From Saccharomycodes ludwigii (lineage: Eukaryota; Ascomycota; Saccharomycetes; Saccharomycodales; Saccharomycodaceae), in NCBI RefSeq assembly GCF_020623625.1, contig NC_060204.1:1342501-1406500 (forward strand): a stretch of 64,000 bases of DNA, given 5' to 3'. The position numbers and the translations under genes are program-made. A model generated the notes under the pieces. That model ran no database searches and was not told the DNA's origin. It saw only the letters and a program-made list of their open reading frames with translations. Numbering within the stretch: position 1 is the stretch's first letter; every line of letters begins with the position of its first letter. Below are positions 36,897 to 53,445 of this stretch, piece after piece.

Positions 36897-37988
36897 TTAT
36901 GAGTTCATTTCTACAATCAAATTCCCTGATGGACATATCGAACTGTTTTCAGATATACGCTGGTTGATATCCCTCAACTCTGCTCTGGGAACGGGTGTGG
37001 CTAAAATAAAAGGATAGTCGTAGTGATAATCTACCCTTTCTTGACTTGTTTCTGTAATATTTAATCTGTGCAACTCTACAAATGCATAAATCTCTTCGAC
37101 AGGACAGCTTGGATCAAACTTTCTAATAATCCTTTCACCATCGGGAAAAGTAAGACGAATCTTGCAGCCACTCCTGGGCTCAGCTTTCAATTCCGAATTT
37201 TTCCAGCGTAACCATTTGCCCTTTAACACTGCTTCCTGCTGTTGTCTTTCAAGTTCCTGATCACGTCTCAATGATTCATCATATCGTCTATTTTGTTCGT
37301 TAACCACATTTCTTTGTTGCCTTACACTCAAAAGTTGTGAATAGCATTCCATTATCTTTGATTCCAGTCTTTCCTTCCAACGCACATTGGCTGATAACGT
37401 GCTTCCTTCCACTTTAAATTGTAATTTAAACTTGCCGTTGTTATCTAGACATAGAAAAATCAAAGCAGGACAATGTTTCACTTTAAACATATCAGCTACT
37501 TGCAAAGCTTCGGTATTTGAGGAGATATCACCCATCCAGAAAACACCTTGGTACTTTTTCAAAAGTGGAGCCAATTCCTTTAAAACATTATTGGTAACTT
37601 GTGACGAATTATCTAATAGAGTGGATTGTAAAAAAATAAATACAAATTTTCCCTGTTCATTGGCCTTGTTTAAACTTTCAACGTATGAACCACATAAATA
37701 AGGTGTCAAGTACTCGTGTTCATCTTGATCTGGAATTTTAGAATCCAAAATAAATTTTCTTAGATTGTTTTCATGCGACACATTTTTATATCTATAAATA
37801 GAAGATATTTTAATGCATTTGTGGAATATTTCAATACAGGTACTGAATACCCCGTATACTATTAATAGTGGTGCTTTTAATGTTATATAATATAACAATT
37901 CTTTATTGAAAACTTTTTGGTACCATTTTATGTTTTTATCGGGAACTTCTTCCTGTTCTTCTATAAAACTGCCTGGCATTGGTTCCAT
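36897..37988 (-). CDS. UBX3: UAS-UBX domain protein of the FAF2/Ubx3 type (Cdc48 adaptor)
   Basis: A 363-residue protein. A hydrophobic hairpin at about 30-55 (ELLYYITLKAPLLIVYGVF) would insert in the ER or lipid-droplet membrane. A thioredoxin-like UAS domain follows at about 85-215 (YLCGSYVESLNKANEQGKFVFIFLQS, VFWMGDISSNTEALQVADMFKV, CPALIFLCLD). Then come a coiled coil rich in Arg/Gln/Glu at about 220-250 and a C-terminal UBX domain at about 270-355 (CKIRLTFPDGERIIRKFDPSCPV). This order matches FAF2/UBXD8 and S. cerevisiae Ubx3 (455 residues), which recruit Cdc48 to membrane substrates. The N-terminal UBA domain of animal FAF2 is absent. Ubx2 is an alternative but has a different layout. 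It starts MEPM, so Met4 is a second possible start. Confidence 0.75.
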   Translation of the reverse strand: MEPMPGSFIEEQEEVPDKNIKWYQKVFNKELLYYITLKAPLLIVYGVFSTCIEIFHKCIKISSIYRYKNVSHENNLRKFILDSKIPDQDEHEYLTPYLCGSYVESLNKANEQGKFVFIFLQSTLLDNSSQVTNNVLKELAPLLKKYQGVFWMGDISSNTEALQVADMFKVKHCPALIFLCLDNNGKFKLQFKVEGSTLSANVRWKERLESKIMECYSQLLSVRQQRNVVNEQNRRYDESLRRDQELERQQQEAVLKGKWLRWKNSELKAEPRSGCKIRLTFPDGERIIRKFDPSCPVEEIYAFVELHRLNITETSQERVDYHYDYPFILATPVPRAELRDINQRISENSSICPSGNLIVEMNS

Positions 37989-38261: not shown

Positions 38262-38381
38262 GGTTGTTTGGCCGAGCGGTCTAAGGCGTCCGATTCAAGT
38301 ATTAGTTTACCTTCATTGTTAACAACAGTAATGAACACTCGGATATCGTAAGATGCAAGAGTTCGAATCTCTTAGCAACCA
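38262..38381 (+). tRNA. tRNA-Leu (anticodon CAA) with a 38-nt intron
   Basis: Exons 38262-38299 and 38338-38381. The acceptor strands GGTTGTT and AGCAACC pair, with discriminator A. Anticodon CAA is at 38296-38298. The intron 38300-38337 follows position 37, the standard site, and contains TTG able to pair with the anticodon. The long variable arm and the T arm AGAGTTCGAATCTCT are present. The mature sequence is nearly the same as S. cerevisiae tRNA-Leu(CAA), which also carries an intron of about 32 nt. A T9 tract starting near 38385 terminates transcription. Confidence 0.97.
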
Positions 38382-38462: not shown

Positions 38463-39016
38463 ATGCATGGCAGTAATATTTTTTTAAAAAAAATAAAGGA
38501 GCAAATGTTATCAAAATACTTTGCTTATTTATTGCTAATAATACCCAAATGTTGTGATATTATTATTACTATCAGGCAATACAAAAAATTGTCCAGTAAT
38601 GATAGTATTAGGTTGCCTCCTGGATTAAGTAAGTATATCAATAAAACTGATAACCTCGAGAAAACCAGATCTGAATTATTGTTACAAATTGTTCAGGGAT
38701 TGTGTCTTTTATTAACTATTAGCATAGTTTTTCTTCTATCAAATGTTTTTTTATGGCTGTGGTTTAGAGCATCTGAATTAAGTTCCTGCATCGCTATGAT
38801 ATTTTATTCATCAGAAAATAAGCTTCAACTTAAGATTGAAAATAATTATAAAAACAACAATGATTTTTATGAGTTTTCAAATAAGGCTATTTTTGATATT
38901 TTACTGTTGATATTTTTTGGGCTATTAAAACTAGTTTCTGTTTTGGTATCTAGGGGAATTTATTATGGTTATTCTAACAATAATAAGAGTAATAACGACA
39001 AGAAAAGCCTGATCAC

Positions 39017-39054
<38 letters not shown>

Positions 39055-40301
39055 GGATTTCCAAAGCAAACAATTTTTTTAAATTAAGGGGGTTTATATT
39101 TTACACTTTACTCGTTGTATTCCCTTTTATAATGCTCTTTTTTATGGTAATTATCATTGTCGAATCGAATTTAATTTTTACTGTTGGTCTTCCGTTATTT
39201 TTACTTGCATTGCTATATGGATCACTATTTGGCTCATTAATTGGCTTATTAATTATAGCCTTACCAAGATTTATTAGCTATATAGGTATCTATATTATGT
39301 TTCTTTCCCCTAAGGTAAATATTAGAAACTCGAGGAAACTGGAAGAAGAAAATTATAGTTTGTATCAAAATTTAATGAAACTATGCAATAATAGTGAATA
39401 TGAGATTAAGAACAAAGTTTCTGATATTTATATAATAAAACCTTCCACAGATGAACAAAATATAATCACCTTGTGTGGATTGCCTTTTGGAAAAAAGAAA
39501 CTTTACTTGTCTGGAAACATGTTTGAAAGTTGTGATACAAATAAAACAAAAAAAGACGACCAAATTTACACCCTCATATTATTACAATTAATGAAAAGAA
39601 AAAAAATATATACCAAATATAGTTTTTTTACCTTTGTTCTTTTACTTATTCTGTCTTCCATTGCATTAGCAACGTTTTTTAAAATTTCAGTCCTAGTGAA
39701 TAAAAATTATGAATCAGTGCTTTCCAGCTTTGGTTTTGCTTTTAGTGAAGGTGATAGTAATTATCCTATTGTTATCGGAACAAGATGCTATTCTCGCATA
39801 GGAATAATTTGGTATCCGGCAGCTGCTACTTACTTATTATCCAGACTGTTTTTTTTGTTACTTCGTTGGATTAATAAAAAAAAATTTAATCGCTATATCA
39901 TGGGTATAATTGATCAAGGATATGGAAAAGAATTATACTATGCAATGCTGAACTTGCAGTTTAATCCTTACAACCGTTCATCATCGCCTAGTACAAGCAA
40001 TTTATTATTGTATCCCGATCACTTGTATATCCATTACTTTAATGTAAATTCAATCGAATTATATTTATTTTTGAATGGCTTATTGCAGCTAACAAAAGAA
40101 GATAATAAGGAACAGAATATATTAGAACCAGAATGTGATGAAAAATATCAGGCAGGGCTAAGGGAGAATGCTGATGATAATAAAAATCATCAATTTTTAG
40201 ATACTTTGTTTTGGGTAGTTTTTATTCCCTCTACCTTTTTTATTGGTTATTTTGTATCTAGATTAATTTTGGGACCTCACATTAAGGCTCTACTTGAATG
40301 A
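38463..40301 (+). CDS. Ste24-like multi-pass membrane protein lacking the M48 zinc-protease motifs (candidate pseudoprotease)
   Basis: A 612-residue protein with about 7-8 hydrophobic segments. Parts resemble CaaX protease Ste24: RQYKKLS...LPPGLSKYI near residue 37 (Ste24 RQYQKLS...LPPVL); a region with DIYIIKPSTDEQN...GLPFGKKKLYLSGNMFES near 322-360 (Ste24 [35 protein letters not shown]); and a C-terminal block with YGKELYYAMLNLQFNP near 480. Where Ste24 has HEIGH, this protein has LILLQLMKRK, and the downstream EYQAD glutamate motif is replaced as well. No HExxH occurs anywhere. An Asn run (AAT repeats) interrupts a loop at about 185. The frame is intact over 1.8 kb with conserved architecture, so it is probably expressed, but not as a zinc protease. 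The alignment was made by eye from memory of Ste24. Confidence 0.65.
39019..39051 (+). repeat. (AAT)n repeat coding an Asn run in the Ste24-like gene
   Basis: Eleven AAT codons in a predicted loop between membrane segments. It is a pure microsatellite and so likely variable in length. Confidence 0.85.
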
Positions 40302-49623: not shown

Positions 49624-52600
49624 ATGATGGCATCCATAAAGCAGGGAAAAATATCTCTAACTTGGTCCTTGCTCACTTTATTTTTTACTTTGGCTACAAG
49701 AAATGTATATGCTACTACTGTAACTGAAGACGATGCAGGCGGATGTATCCCAACTGTTTTTGAAAGGTCTGCAGAGAAAATGGGGTTTCATGTCCAATTT
49801 TATCACTACAACTTTTTATCTTACAATGCTAAAACTAATACTGGTGTTCCAGATTTGAAAACATATGTGAGTTCTGAATATATTAATGGCGGTTTCGCTG
49901 ATTATGGTATGTTTGGTGAAACCTACTCTGCCACAAATTTGAGTTTTAAGTTTGTTCCTAACGATGTTTATAAGGCTCTTCAAAAAGCAACTTTACCACC
50001 TGGGTTCGCTTATTCAGAACCTTTTTATCTTACAAATTGGACTTTCCTGGCAACTGGTTACTTTGTTCCACCAACCACTGGTGTCTATAAAATAGGCATA
50101 GAGTACATTGATGATTTAGGTATTGTATCTTTTGGTGCTAATTCTGCATTTGAGTGTTGTTTACAGCATTCTACCTCGACTACTCCACAATCTTATCAAA
50201 TTAGTTCTTTATGGTCATCGAGTGGCCCATCGGGAGTAAATGAAGTTTCTGTAACGTTAAATGCTGGTATTTACTACCCATTGAGAATATTTTATGTTAA
50301 TCGTCAAAATATCGCTGGGATGAATTTTGGTTACACAGATCCAGATGGTGTTTATCACAACCATTGGTCCGAAGTTATTTATAATTTTAAGGATAGTGAT
50401 GCAAGTTGTGATGCTCCAAGTGGAAATTCAACAACATATATCCCATGGACTGGATCCGTTACATCTACTATTGGTACATCAGTTTTCACTACTACTGGTA
50501 CTGATGGTATTCCAACTACCTCTACGATTTACACAGTTGAGACTCCAGAACATAACGGTGCTACTACCACTTACACTCCATGGACTGGATCTGTTACTTC
50601 TACTATTGGTACATCAGTTTTCACTACTGCTGGTACTGATGGTATTCCAACTACCTCTACGATTTACACAGTTGAGACTCCAGAACATAACGGTGCTACT
50701 ACCACTTACACTCCATGGACTGGATCTGTTACTTCTACTATTGGTACTAGTGTAACTACCAGCATTGGATCTGATGGTATTCCAACAACCTCTACGATTT
50801 ACACAGTTGAAACACCAGAGCATAACGGTGCTACTACCACTTATACACCATGGACTGGATCTGTTACTTCTACTATTGGTACTAGTGTAACTACCAGCAT
50901 TGGATCTGATGGTATTCCAACAACCTCTACGATTTACACAGTTGAAACACCAGAGCATAACGGTGCTACTACCACTTATACACCATGGACTGGATCCTTT
51001 ACTTCTACTATTGGTACATCAGTTTTCACTACTACTGGTACTGATGGTATTCCAACTACCTCTACGATTTACACAGTTGAGACTCCAGAACATAACGGTG
51101 CTACTACCACTTACACTCCATGGACTGGATCTGTTACTTCTACTATTGGTACTAGTGTAACTACCAGCATTGGATCTGATGGTATTCCAACAACCTCTAC
51201 GATTTACACAGTTGAAACACCAGAACATAACGGTGCTACTACCACTTACACTCCATGGACTGGATCTGTTACTTCTACTATTGGTACTAGTGTAACTACC
51301 AGCATTGGATCTGATGGTATTCCAACAACCTCTACGATTTACACAGTTGAAACACCAGAGCATAACGGTGCTACTACCACTTATACACCATGGACTGGAT
51401 CTGTTACTTCTACAATTGGTACATCAGTTTTCACTACTACTGGTACTGATGGTATTCCAACTACCTCTACGATTTACACAGTTGAAACACCAGAACATAA
51501 CGGTGCTACTACCACTTACACTCCATGGACTGGATCTGTTACTTCTACTATTGGTACTAGTGTAACTACCAGCATTGGATCTGATGGTATTCCAACAACC
51601 TCTACGATTTACACAGTTGAAACACCAGAGCATAACGGTGCTACTACCACTTATACACCATGGACTGGATCTGTTACTTCTACAATTGGTACATCAGTTT
51701 TCACTACTACTGGTACTGATGGTATTCCAACTACCTCTACGATTTACACAGTTGAGACTCCAGAACATAACGGTGCTACTACCACTTATACACCATGGAC
51801 TGGATCTGTTACTTCTACAATTGGTACATCAGTTTTCACTACTACTGGTACTGATGGTATTCCAACTACCTCTACGATTTACACAGTTGAGACTCCAGAA
51901 CATAACGATGCTACTACCACTTACACTCCATGGACTGGATCTGTTACTTCTACTATTGGTACATCAGTTTTCACCACTACTGGTACTGATGGTATTCCAA
52001 CTACCTCTACGATTTACACAGTTGAAACACCGGAGAACCATGCTATTAGTACTACATTCACCTCTTGGGGTGGTGCTTACACTTCAACTTATTCCACTAA
52101 CATTTTCACTGTTACTGGCTCTAATGGATTGTCTACCACTTCCACTATTCTTTACGTTGAAACACCAGGATTTGGTTATTTCAATACTACGAGTTCTAAA
52201 TCTTCGCCATTTACTACTCTTCCAGGTACTACTAACACTCAGACATCTACAAACCCAAGTGAAGGTAGATCCGCATCAGAAACCTTTACTACCCCAGTTT
52301 CAGGTATCACCTCTACCTCTGAAAGTGTTATTCCAGTTAAACCAACTACTGAAACACCTGGATTGCCTTCTAGTGTTACAAGAACTACTGTGATTGTTAC
52401 ATCTGGCAGAACTATAACCTCGACTGTTGTCACATGCGATGCTACTACCACCACTGTTCCAAACAATAACAACAACAATAATAGTGGTTCTAACAATTCC
52501 GGTTCCGAAGTTTATTCTGTTAGTTCTGAGACTTCCAATACACCAGTTACTGTTACTAAGACTAGTGTGTACACTACATCTGGTAGTACCATTACTGCTA

Positions 52601-53445
52601 TTATCACCTCCACTATTGTTCCAAATAACAACAACAACAACGGTGGATCTGGTAGTTCTGAAACCACTAATACACCAGTCACTGTTACCAAGACTAGTGT
52701 ATTCACTACTTCGGGTAGTACCATTACTGCTACTATCACCTCTACTATTGTTCCAAACAACAACAACAACGGTGGATCTGGTAATTCCGAAACTGCTAAT
52801 ACACCAGTTACTGTTACCAAGACTAGTGTGTACACTACTTCCGGTAGTACCATCACATCTGTTATTACATCAACTATTGTTCCAAACAACAACAATAACA
52901 ATGGTGGATCTGGTAGTTCTGAGACTGCTAATACACCAGTTACTGTTACTAAGACTAGTGTGTACACTACTTCAGGTAGTGCCATTACTGCTACTATCAC
53001 ATCAACTATTGTTCCAAACAACAACAATAACAATGGTGGATCTGGTAGTTCCGAAACTGCTAATACACCAGTTACTGTTACCAAGACTAGTGTGTACACT
53101 ACTTCCGGTAGTACTATCACATCTGTTATTACATCTACTATTGTTCCAAACAATAATAATGAAAACGGATCAGGTTCTCCAGGCAATGCTAGTGAATATT
53201 TCGAGACTATTTCTTCTGGTTCTGTTTACACTAGTGTTACCAAAACTACATCTAATGGGAAATTAATTACTACTACTATTCAATCGGAAATTGTTTCTAG
53301 CACACCCGCTATTGAAGTCCAAAGTATTCAATCTCAAACTACTTTACCTGTTGTTTCAATTTATCAAGCTGGTGCTTCTTCTAATGGATTATCTGCTTTC
53401 AAAATGTTTTTTACATTATTTGTCTTATTTTTCAGTATATTCTGA
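49624..53445 (+). CDS. Flo1-type flocculin: PA14 adhesin with tandem Thr-rich repeats and GPI signal
   Basis: The open frame extends upstream to a TTG, but the first ATG is at 49624 (ATGATGGCATCC), giving 1,273 residues. The N-terminus is a signal peptide (ISLTWSLLTLFFTLATRNVYA). A PA14/Flo5-like lectin domain spans about residues 45-265 with the calcium/mannose-binding adjacent aspartates in YIDDLGIVSFG and paired cysteines. Thirteen 45-residue repeats follow (TTYTPWTGSVTSTIG type, as in Flo1), then a Ser/Thr stalk and five 44-residue NTPVTVTKTSVYTTSGS repeats separated by Asn/Gly/Ser linkers. The C-terminus (LSAFKMFFTLFVLFFSIF) is a GPI-attachment signal. This family binds mannose on neighbouring cells and is heavily O-mannosylated. 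It is the only intact member in the window. Confidence 0.93.
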   Translation: MMASIKQGKISLTWSLLTLFFTLATRNVYATTVTEDDAGGCIPTVFERSAEKMGFHVQFYHYNFLSYNAKTNTGVPDLKTYVSSEYINGGFADYGMFGETYSATNLSFKFVPNDVYKALQKATLPPGFAYSEPFYLTNWTFLATGYFVPPTTGVYKIGIEYIDDLGIVSFGANSAFECCLQHSTSTTPQSYQISSLWSSSGPSGVNEVSVTLNAGIYYPLRIFYVNRQNIAGMNFGYTDPDGVYHNHWSEVIYNFKDSDASCDAPSGNSTTYIPWTGSVTSTIGTSVFTTTGTDGIPTTSTIYTVETPEHNGATTTYTPWTGSVTSTIGTSVFTTAGTDGIPTTSTIYTVETPEHNGATTTYTPWTGSVTSTIGTSVTTSIGSDGIPTTSTIYTVETPEHNGATTTYTPWTGSVTSTIGTSVTTSIGSDGIPTTSTIYTVETPEHNGATTTYTPWTGSFTSTIGTSVFTTTGTDGIPTTSTIYTVETPEHNGATTTYTPWTGSVTSTIGTSVTTSIGSDGIPTTSTIYTVETPEHNGATTTYTPWTGSVTSTIGTSVTTSIGSDGIPTTSTIYTVETPEHNGATTTYTPWTGSVTSTIGTSVFTTTGTDGIPTTSTIYTVETPEHNGATTTYTPWTGSVTSTIGTSVTTSIGSDGIPTTSTIYTVETPEHNGATTTYTPWTGSVTSTIGTSVFTTTGTDGIPTTSTIYTVETPEHNGATTTYTPWTGSVTSTIGTSVFTTTGTDGIPTTSTIYTVETPEHNDATTTYTPWTGSVTSTIGTSVFTTTGTDGIPTTSTIYTVETPENHAISTTFTSWGGAYTSTYSTNIFTVTGSNGLSTTSTILYVETPGFGYFNTTSSKSSPFTTLPGTTNTQTSTNPSEGRSASETFTTPVSGITSTSESVIPVKPTTETPGLPSSVTRTTVIVTSGRTITSTVVTCDATTTTVPNNNNNNNSGSNNSGSEVYSVSSETSNTPVTVTKTSVYTTSGSTITAIITSTIVPNNNNNNGGSGSSETTNTPVTVTKTSVFTTSGSTITATITSTIVPNNNNNGGSGNSETANTPVTVTKTSVYTTSGSTITSVITSTIVPNNNNNNGGSGSSETANTPVTVTKTSVYTTSGSAITATITSTIVPNNNNNNGGSGSSETANTPVTVTKTSVYTTSGSTITSVITSTIVPNNNNENGSGSPGNASEYFETISSGSVYTSVTKTTSNGKLITTTIQSEIVSSTPAIEVQSIQSQTTLPVVSIYQAGASSNGLSAFKMFFTLFVLFFSIF
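50431..52185 (+). repeat. Flocculin 135-bp tandem repeats (12 units plus one diverged)
   Basis: Twelve exact-length 135-bp units start at 50431, and a diverged 13th starts at 52051. Two unit subtypes differ in one block: SVFTTTGTDG (A) and SVTTSIGSDG (B). The order is A A B B A B B A B A A A. Identity within a subtype is very high, so recent homogenisation is likely. Confidence 0.97.
52540..53160 (+). repeat. Flocculin C-terminal repeats (five units of about 130 bp)
   Basis: Five copies of a unit coding TPVTVTKTSVYTTSGS, then TSTIVP and an Asn4-6-Gly-Gly-Ser-Gly linker. A more diverged relative (VTRTTVIVTSGRTITS) precedes them. Linker length varies by one Asn between copies. Confidence 0.93.

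Follow-up and report, generated by a model that had tools for sequence, protein, structure and literature searches.

A four-member family of likely Ste24-derived pseudoproteases in the yeast Saccharomycodes ludwigii

The window gene and its three paralogs

The window, the whole 64-kb stretch of contig C5 that was analysed (30.9% G+C), carries on its forward strand an intact open reading frame, here called WIN, whose landmarks are collected in Table 1 together with its relatives. The initial annotation had read this gene as a Ste24-like protein whose frame stays open over 612 codons with membrane segments kept. The frame is indeed uninterrupted in the ORF listing of the window. Hydrophobic segments are also present, seven in WIN, the last of them specific to it, and four to six in its paralogs; the number of membrane helices is less settled, since the same crude threshold finds only two to three segments in true yeast Ste24, so hydropathy does not fix the helix number in the family relative to the seven-helix barrel with its large chamber that marks Ste24. 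The conserved start of WIN is probably Met15, which coincides with the starts of the paralogs.

Genome searches (12,500,424 bases, 8 contigs) identified three more intact paralogs, P2, P3 and P4, showing that WIN belongs to a family with four open frames of 493-612 aa. The three paralogs share 38-40% identity with WIN and 41-42% among themselves. Searches started from P3 and from P2 returned the same four members and one weak stretch on C1. This stretch (E 6.7e-5, 29% identity, five stops) lies in A+T-rich DNA beside other genes and was rejected by judgement as a fifth remnant. A match extending beyond the P3 stop, over four stops, to WIN residue 595 was likewise not accepted as a lost P3 tail on inspection of the downstream frames. 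When viral contigs were scanned with the family, none of 87 pattern stretches was a relative.

The four members are dispersed beside unrelated ordinary genes and form no single tandem array. WIN is flanked by genes for a UBX protein and a PDR-type ABC transporter, P4 by an amino-acid permease gene and a gene that, by its sequence, we take to be SMT3, P2 by PEPCK and P3 by a copper amine oxidase gene. The UBX-domain gene adjoins WIN in divergent transcription and was not seen near the other three paralogs in 9.9-kb stretches. Directly 5' of WIN on the same strand lies a tRNA-Leu-like gene with an intron, recognised by eye and missed by ARAGORN. Elsewhere in the window is a gene for a flocculin-type cell-wall protein with a PA14/GLEYA domain and repeat arrays of 135 and 132 bases.

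Table 1. Positions of the window gene, its landmarks, its relatives and nearby genes (window numbering unless a contig is named).
Feature	Position	Strand	Length or residues	Basis
Window containing WIN	C5:1342501-1406500
WIN, putative Ste24-derived pseudoprotease	38463..40301	+	612 codons, 612 aa	ORF list, paralogs, hhalign
Met15 to stop, probable conserved coding part	38505..40301	+		alignment; three paralogs start at Met15
RQY..LPP block, common to WIN and yeast Ste24	38574..38621	+	residues 38-53	profile and MAFFT alignments
AAT run encoding a poly-Asn loop, in WIN only among the four members	39018..39052	+		sequence, alignment; edges by eye
GLPF..KKLYL block (Ste24 GLPFFKQRIVI)	39477..39509	+	residues 339-349	alignments
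Stretch at the place of HExxH, WIN DQIYTLILLQLMKRKK, Ste24 DEVVAVLGHEIGHWKK (H>L, E>Q, H>K)	39558..39605	+		profile alignment
Place of the third zinc ligand (Ste24 RHNEYEAD, WIN KKKFNRYI), then kept QGYG block	39876..39926	+		alignments
Extra C-terminal hydrophobic segment without counterpart in paralogs	40203..40259	+	residues 581-599	hydropathy, alignment, frames 3' of paralogs
P2	C7 near 725 kb		505 aa	genome search
P3	C7 near 630 kb		527 aa	genome search
P4	C5 near 145.5 kb		493 aa	genome search
Canonical STE24	C5:710730-712139		469 aa
Truncated second STE24 copy	C7:435136-436377
tRNA-Leu-like gene with intron	38262-38380	+		by eye
UBX-domain protein gene	36897-37988	-
Flocculin-type cell-wall protein gene	49624-53445

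A canonical STE24 lies elsewhere in the genome, as the initial annotation had suggested should be checked. It is full-length, carries HEIGH and EYEAD, matches both Pfam halves (PF01435 and PF16491) and is apparently active, so that catalysis is covered outside the family. A second STE24 copy is 98.9% identical to the first over 1315 bases but has lost roughly its first 45 codons, start codon included; its first in-frame Met leaves 283 aa. It appears to be a duplicate of recent origin that is losing its function, so decay of STE24 duplicates does occur in this genome. The four members, STE24 and the truncated copy all lie on C5 and C7, two of eight contigs that make up ~18% of the genome, a pattern noticed post hoc. 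Contig C7 also holds an OMA1-like gene. Comparison of the family with its protein gave a probability of 0.1% in hhalign, which does not place the family in the OMA1 group (M48C).

The four family frames are under purifying selection. In GY94 codon models run with our own script, omega was 0.12-0.23 in all six pairs, with likelihood ratios of 55-82 against omega = 1; these values, measured among the four paralogs of this genome, are rough because dS is saturated at 3.1-5.5. Codon-position identity tells the same story, with position 2 (0.67-0.72) exceeding position 1 (0.55-0.60) and position 3 (0.47-0.51) in every pair.

Descent from Ste24 and loss of the zinc site

Profile comparison with hhalign linked the family to Ste24. 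A profile of the four members matched a three-sequence Ste24 profile (the genome's own Ste24, that of S. mikatae and one from Campylobacterota) with 96.8% probability over 397 columns at 18% identity (E 2.6e-10 for the single comparison). It matched a 28-sequence profile, made of two yeast and 26 bacterial sequences, with 89.0% over 382 columns; the 25 sequences added were the best 25 of 145 genomes with a match. Against the two yeast Ste24s it reached 74.7% over 406 columns. Column controls for the three- and 28-sequence profiles, one reversed and ten shuffled for each, stayed at or below 1.3%, and 40 local shuffles, in which columns moved only within blocks of 12 so that the hydrophobic pattern was preserved, gave at most 22.2% with the three-sequence profile. 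To obtain comparison sequences, bacterial and archaeal contigs were searched with the own Ste24 only, which gave one relative among 68 stretches.

Other comparisons were weaker. The family profile scored 0.3% against a bacteria-only profile of 26 sequences, and against single Ste24s it gave 58.7% for S. mikatae, 10.7% for the own protein and 0.2-3.4% for five bacterial ones; the value for the own Ste24 is little above the maximum of 6.7% reached by 34 single-sequence control ORFs of the genome, some in overlapping frames. Single members compared with the Ste24 profiles gave 1.0-58.6%. Smith-Waterman alignment with the own Ste24 was stronger, as none of 400 local and none of 400 global shuffles reached the score of any of the four members. 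With S. mikatae Ste24, P2 and P3 beat all shuffles, WIN was weak (its score reached by 1 and 4 of 400) and P4 was weak as well (14 and 23 of 400). No member exceeded every shuffle with the one bacterial Ste24 compared, where the score was reached 2 to 138 times in 400.

The profile search against M48/Ste24 proposed at the outset gave the above matches in profile-profile form; the Pfam M48 models PF01435 and PF16491 miss all four members up to E 10. In the PDB sequence set no Ste24 chain was found with WIN, nor with the family profile up to E 10, and the own Ste24 receives -6.6 bits from the family HMM. Sub-threshold matches in Pfam, NCBIfam and PDB (Promethin, TMEM132_C, tetraspanin, UPF0014, HflC, ribosomal S27a and others) were taken as chance.

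The similarity to Ste24 runs along the length, with the blocks RQY..PP, GLPF..K, FGF, GYGxEL and DPLY..YxY in Ste24 order, and those named in the initial annotation align in order with the own Ste24. Toward the C-terminus, DHLYIHYF..SIELYLF of WIN aligns with DPLYSSYHY..LIERL of Ste24. In one MAFFT alignment of the four members and two yeast Ste24s, all six sequences agree at 22 columns spread over the length, including QY (Q39 and Y40 of WIN), P53, L55, the G and P of GLP, FGF, the G and L of GYGxEL, and D..Y..Y with the next E. The profile matches and shuffle tests together indicate, at the level of sequence, that the family descends from a yeast-type Ste24. The similarity is significant and ordered along the length, with the limit that the bacteria-only and single-sequence comparisons are weak.

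In a tree of 15 sequences and 396 columns, the family groups next to the yeast Ste24s, joined by a very long stem (2.4 substitutions/site in IQ-TREE, 1.9 in FastTree; yeast Ste24 tips 0.34-0.44 in IQ-TREE), a placement open to long-branch effects. IQ-TREE support within the family is only 36 and 50. Of the 189 columns conserved within the family, both yeast Ste24s share the residue in 41; agreement is limited to the own Ste24 in 11 and to that of S. mikatae in 16. Given the low support and these tallies, the duplication can be placed neither before nor after the split between the own and the S. mikatae Ste24.

The catalytic residues have been replaced throughout the family. HExxH is absent in 4/4 members, and none occurs anywhere in WIN. 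At its positions in WIN, P2, P3 and P4, respectively, the first His is L, F, S and L, the Glu is Q, Q, N and E, and the second His is K, R, A and K. The first Glu of NEYEAD is F, Y, S and F in the same order, and the second is kept in no member. We take these His and Glu positions, including the NEYEAD Glu, to be the M48 zinc-site residues. With all such ligands replaced in every member, the aligned residues rule out an M48-type zinc site throughout the family. Both replacements in WIN, of HExxH and of the downstream glutamate (given as EYQAD), are as the initial annotation had described them. The letters SHSNAYF beside the Ste24 active site are not retained in the family either. The family thereby combines protease ancestry, lost catalytic residues and selected frames, which is what a pseudoprotease would be expected to show.

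Within the family, conservation of the stretch at the place of HExxH is only somewhat above average, with 97 of 512 same-length windows equally high, which weakens the idea that it is the family's most conserved part. Segment 353-381 was equalled or exceeded by 35 of 499 windows (both of these stretches were picked after viewing the profile), and QGYGKELY is the most conserved of 520 same-length windows.

Candidate functions and their alternatives

We consider it somewhat probable that these proteins form a family of pseudoproteases derived from M48A whose action involves no cutting and most likely consists in binding membrane proteins, either clients or partners. The two parts of this reading differ in strength: that the family consists of Ste24-derived pseudoproteases is very likely, and, if so, it is fairly probable that they function by binding, at the ER or nuclear membrane. 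An old duplication of fungal STE24, which encodes an M48A membrane zinc protease, would have given rise to the four members; by sequence, every one of them has lost the M48-kind zinc ligands, and an ordinary STE24 is still found elsewhere in the genome. The proteins may retain the Ste24 membrane body within an internal membrane, the ER or nuclear envelope, and may bind polypeptides or partners without cutting, as holdase, receptor or scaffold. Loss of the cutting site suggests that the members probably work by binding, and there are precedents that make a non-cutting role for M48 proteins plausible. ZMPSTE24 H335A is reported to restrict arenavirus pseudoparticles still, slightly below wild type (PMC8915953), and the M48 protease BepA is described as having a chaperone-like function in which a client is assisted through a strand beside the active site (PMC8423444). 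A more specific version, which we hold tentatively and rate a little short of even, is a dedicated and selected four-member M48 counterpart of iRhoms in a yeast lineage, in which the Ste24 barrel now receives or holds membrane proteins as clients without cutting them and the zinc site has been refitted.

Among the alternatives, an unlikely one, raised in the initial annotation, is that the dead paralogs regulate or help Ste24 or the Sec61 translocon, binding Ste24 or clogged clients and tuning their clearance. The Ste24 ancestry of the family is consistent with this, as is the account of Ste24 as a protein with a large water-filled cavity that exerts quality control over the topology of membrane proteins (PMC10456885). 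However, the same source reports that the quality-control function needs zinc protease activity, which argues against this alternative and counts against a plain take-over of that function by the family. Hac1-type sites were found upstream of none of the four genes, and with just 0.01-0.09 expected per promoter their absence is uninformative here.

Less likely again is that the family serves mating, or handles a-factor and other prenylated peptides, in this lineage only, with the Ste24 body binding without cutting. Ste24 is reported to process a-factor (PMC10456885, PMC9114714), and Ste24 paralogs arranged in tandem are reported to serve male fertility in Drosophila (PMC9114714). STE24, MATalpha (C5 at 621 kb) and two of the four members share contig C5, which lends a mating role weak support. 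Against it, the Ste12 site TGAAACA occurs within 700 bp upstream of none of the four genes, an absence to be read against just 0.26 sites expected per promoter.

Of 14 motifs sought in the 700-bp promoter regions of the four genes and STE24, none was raised in all four, and most are too rare for absence to be informative. Single excesses, uncorrected for the 14 motifs, were four Rlm1-like sites before WIN (0.56 expected), two Gcn4-like sites before P4 (0.14 expected) and one Ume6-like core before P2 (0.03 expected).

It is quite improbable that the family is an unrelated set of multi-pass membrane proteins, Ste24-like by composition. Its coding sequence is A+T-rich, it has no M48 match in Pfam or PDB sequences, and the bacteria-only and single-sequence matches are poor; against this, local shuffles that keep the hydrophobic pattern fail to reproduce the match, the control ORFs stay low, and the invariant columns extend over the length of six proteins. 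Marginally less credible still is that the proteins remain enzymes, with a new metal site or other chemistry in the old chamber. Family-specific invariant residues including Cys31, Cys81, Cys357 and Asp358, together with the Glu that P4 has at the catalytic position, would fit such an enzyme, but no known metal-site motif was recognised in the family, and the invariant Cys residues are distant in sequence, two of them within hydrophobic segments. Decaying STE24 duplicates that are open by chance are the least credible reading: the truncated C7 copy shows that decay occurs in this genome, but four frames of 493-612 codons are still open at ~40% protein identity, with low omega and second-position identity well above third.

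Comparison with known systems

Compared with Ste24/ZMPSTE24 (M48A, CaaX protease 1), the family has the same block order, similar length and hydrophobic segments; it differs in lacking HExxH and the third ligand in every member, in being only 18% identical and in going unrecognised by PF01435 and PF16491. The divergent Ste24 paralogs of microsporidia (PMC3879972) likewise involve a fungal-side duplication with one copy strongly diverged, but all microsporidian copies are reported there with HEXXH and are thus presumed proteases. Five Drosophila Ste24 paralogs also represent a lineage-specific expansion, but are termed proteases in PMC9114714, a comparison made by description rather than by motifs. 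BepA shares with our proposal the ability of an M48 protein to bind or assist a client without cutting, and differs in being reported as an active periplasmic protease with a TPR domain (PMC8423444). In a survey of Babesia, Ste24 is listed with intact ligands. In the open-licence literature searched, partly listings and abstracts, no description of a catalytically dead yeast Ste24 was found, and two genome papers on S. ludwigii do not mention Ste24 in their main text.

Pseudoproteases as such are already known; the sequences here show a family-level, selected loss of the zinc site in proteins that are very likely Ste24-derived. A selected family with a Ste24-like body but no zinc site would make it possible to ask what that body does without catalysis. 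A parallel can be drawn with the iRhoms and derlins, which are related to a membrane protease family, have lost catalysis but kept the membrane fold, and whose functions have been studied. Like them, the four proteins would be dead relatives of a membrane protease, but iRhoms and derlins have the Rhomboid fold and belong to another superfamily. If the Ste24 fold is confirmed, the M48 clan would join the membrane protease families that have produced pseudoproteases.
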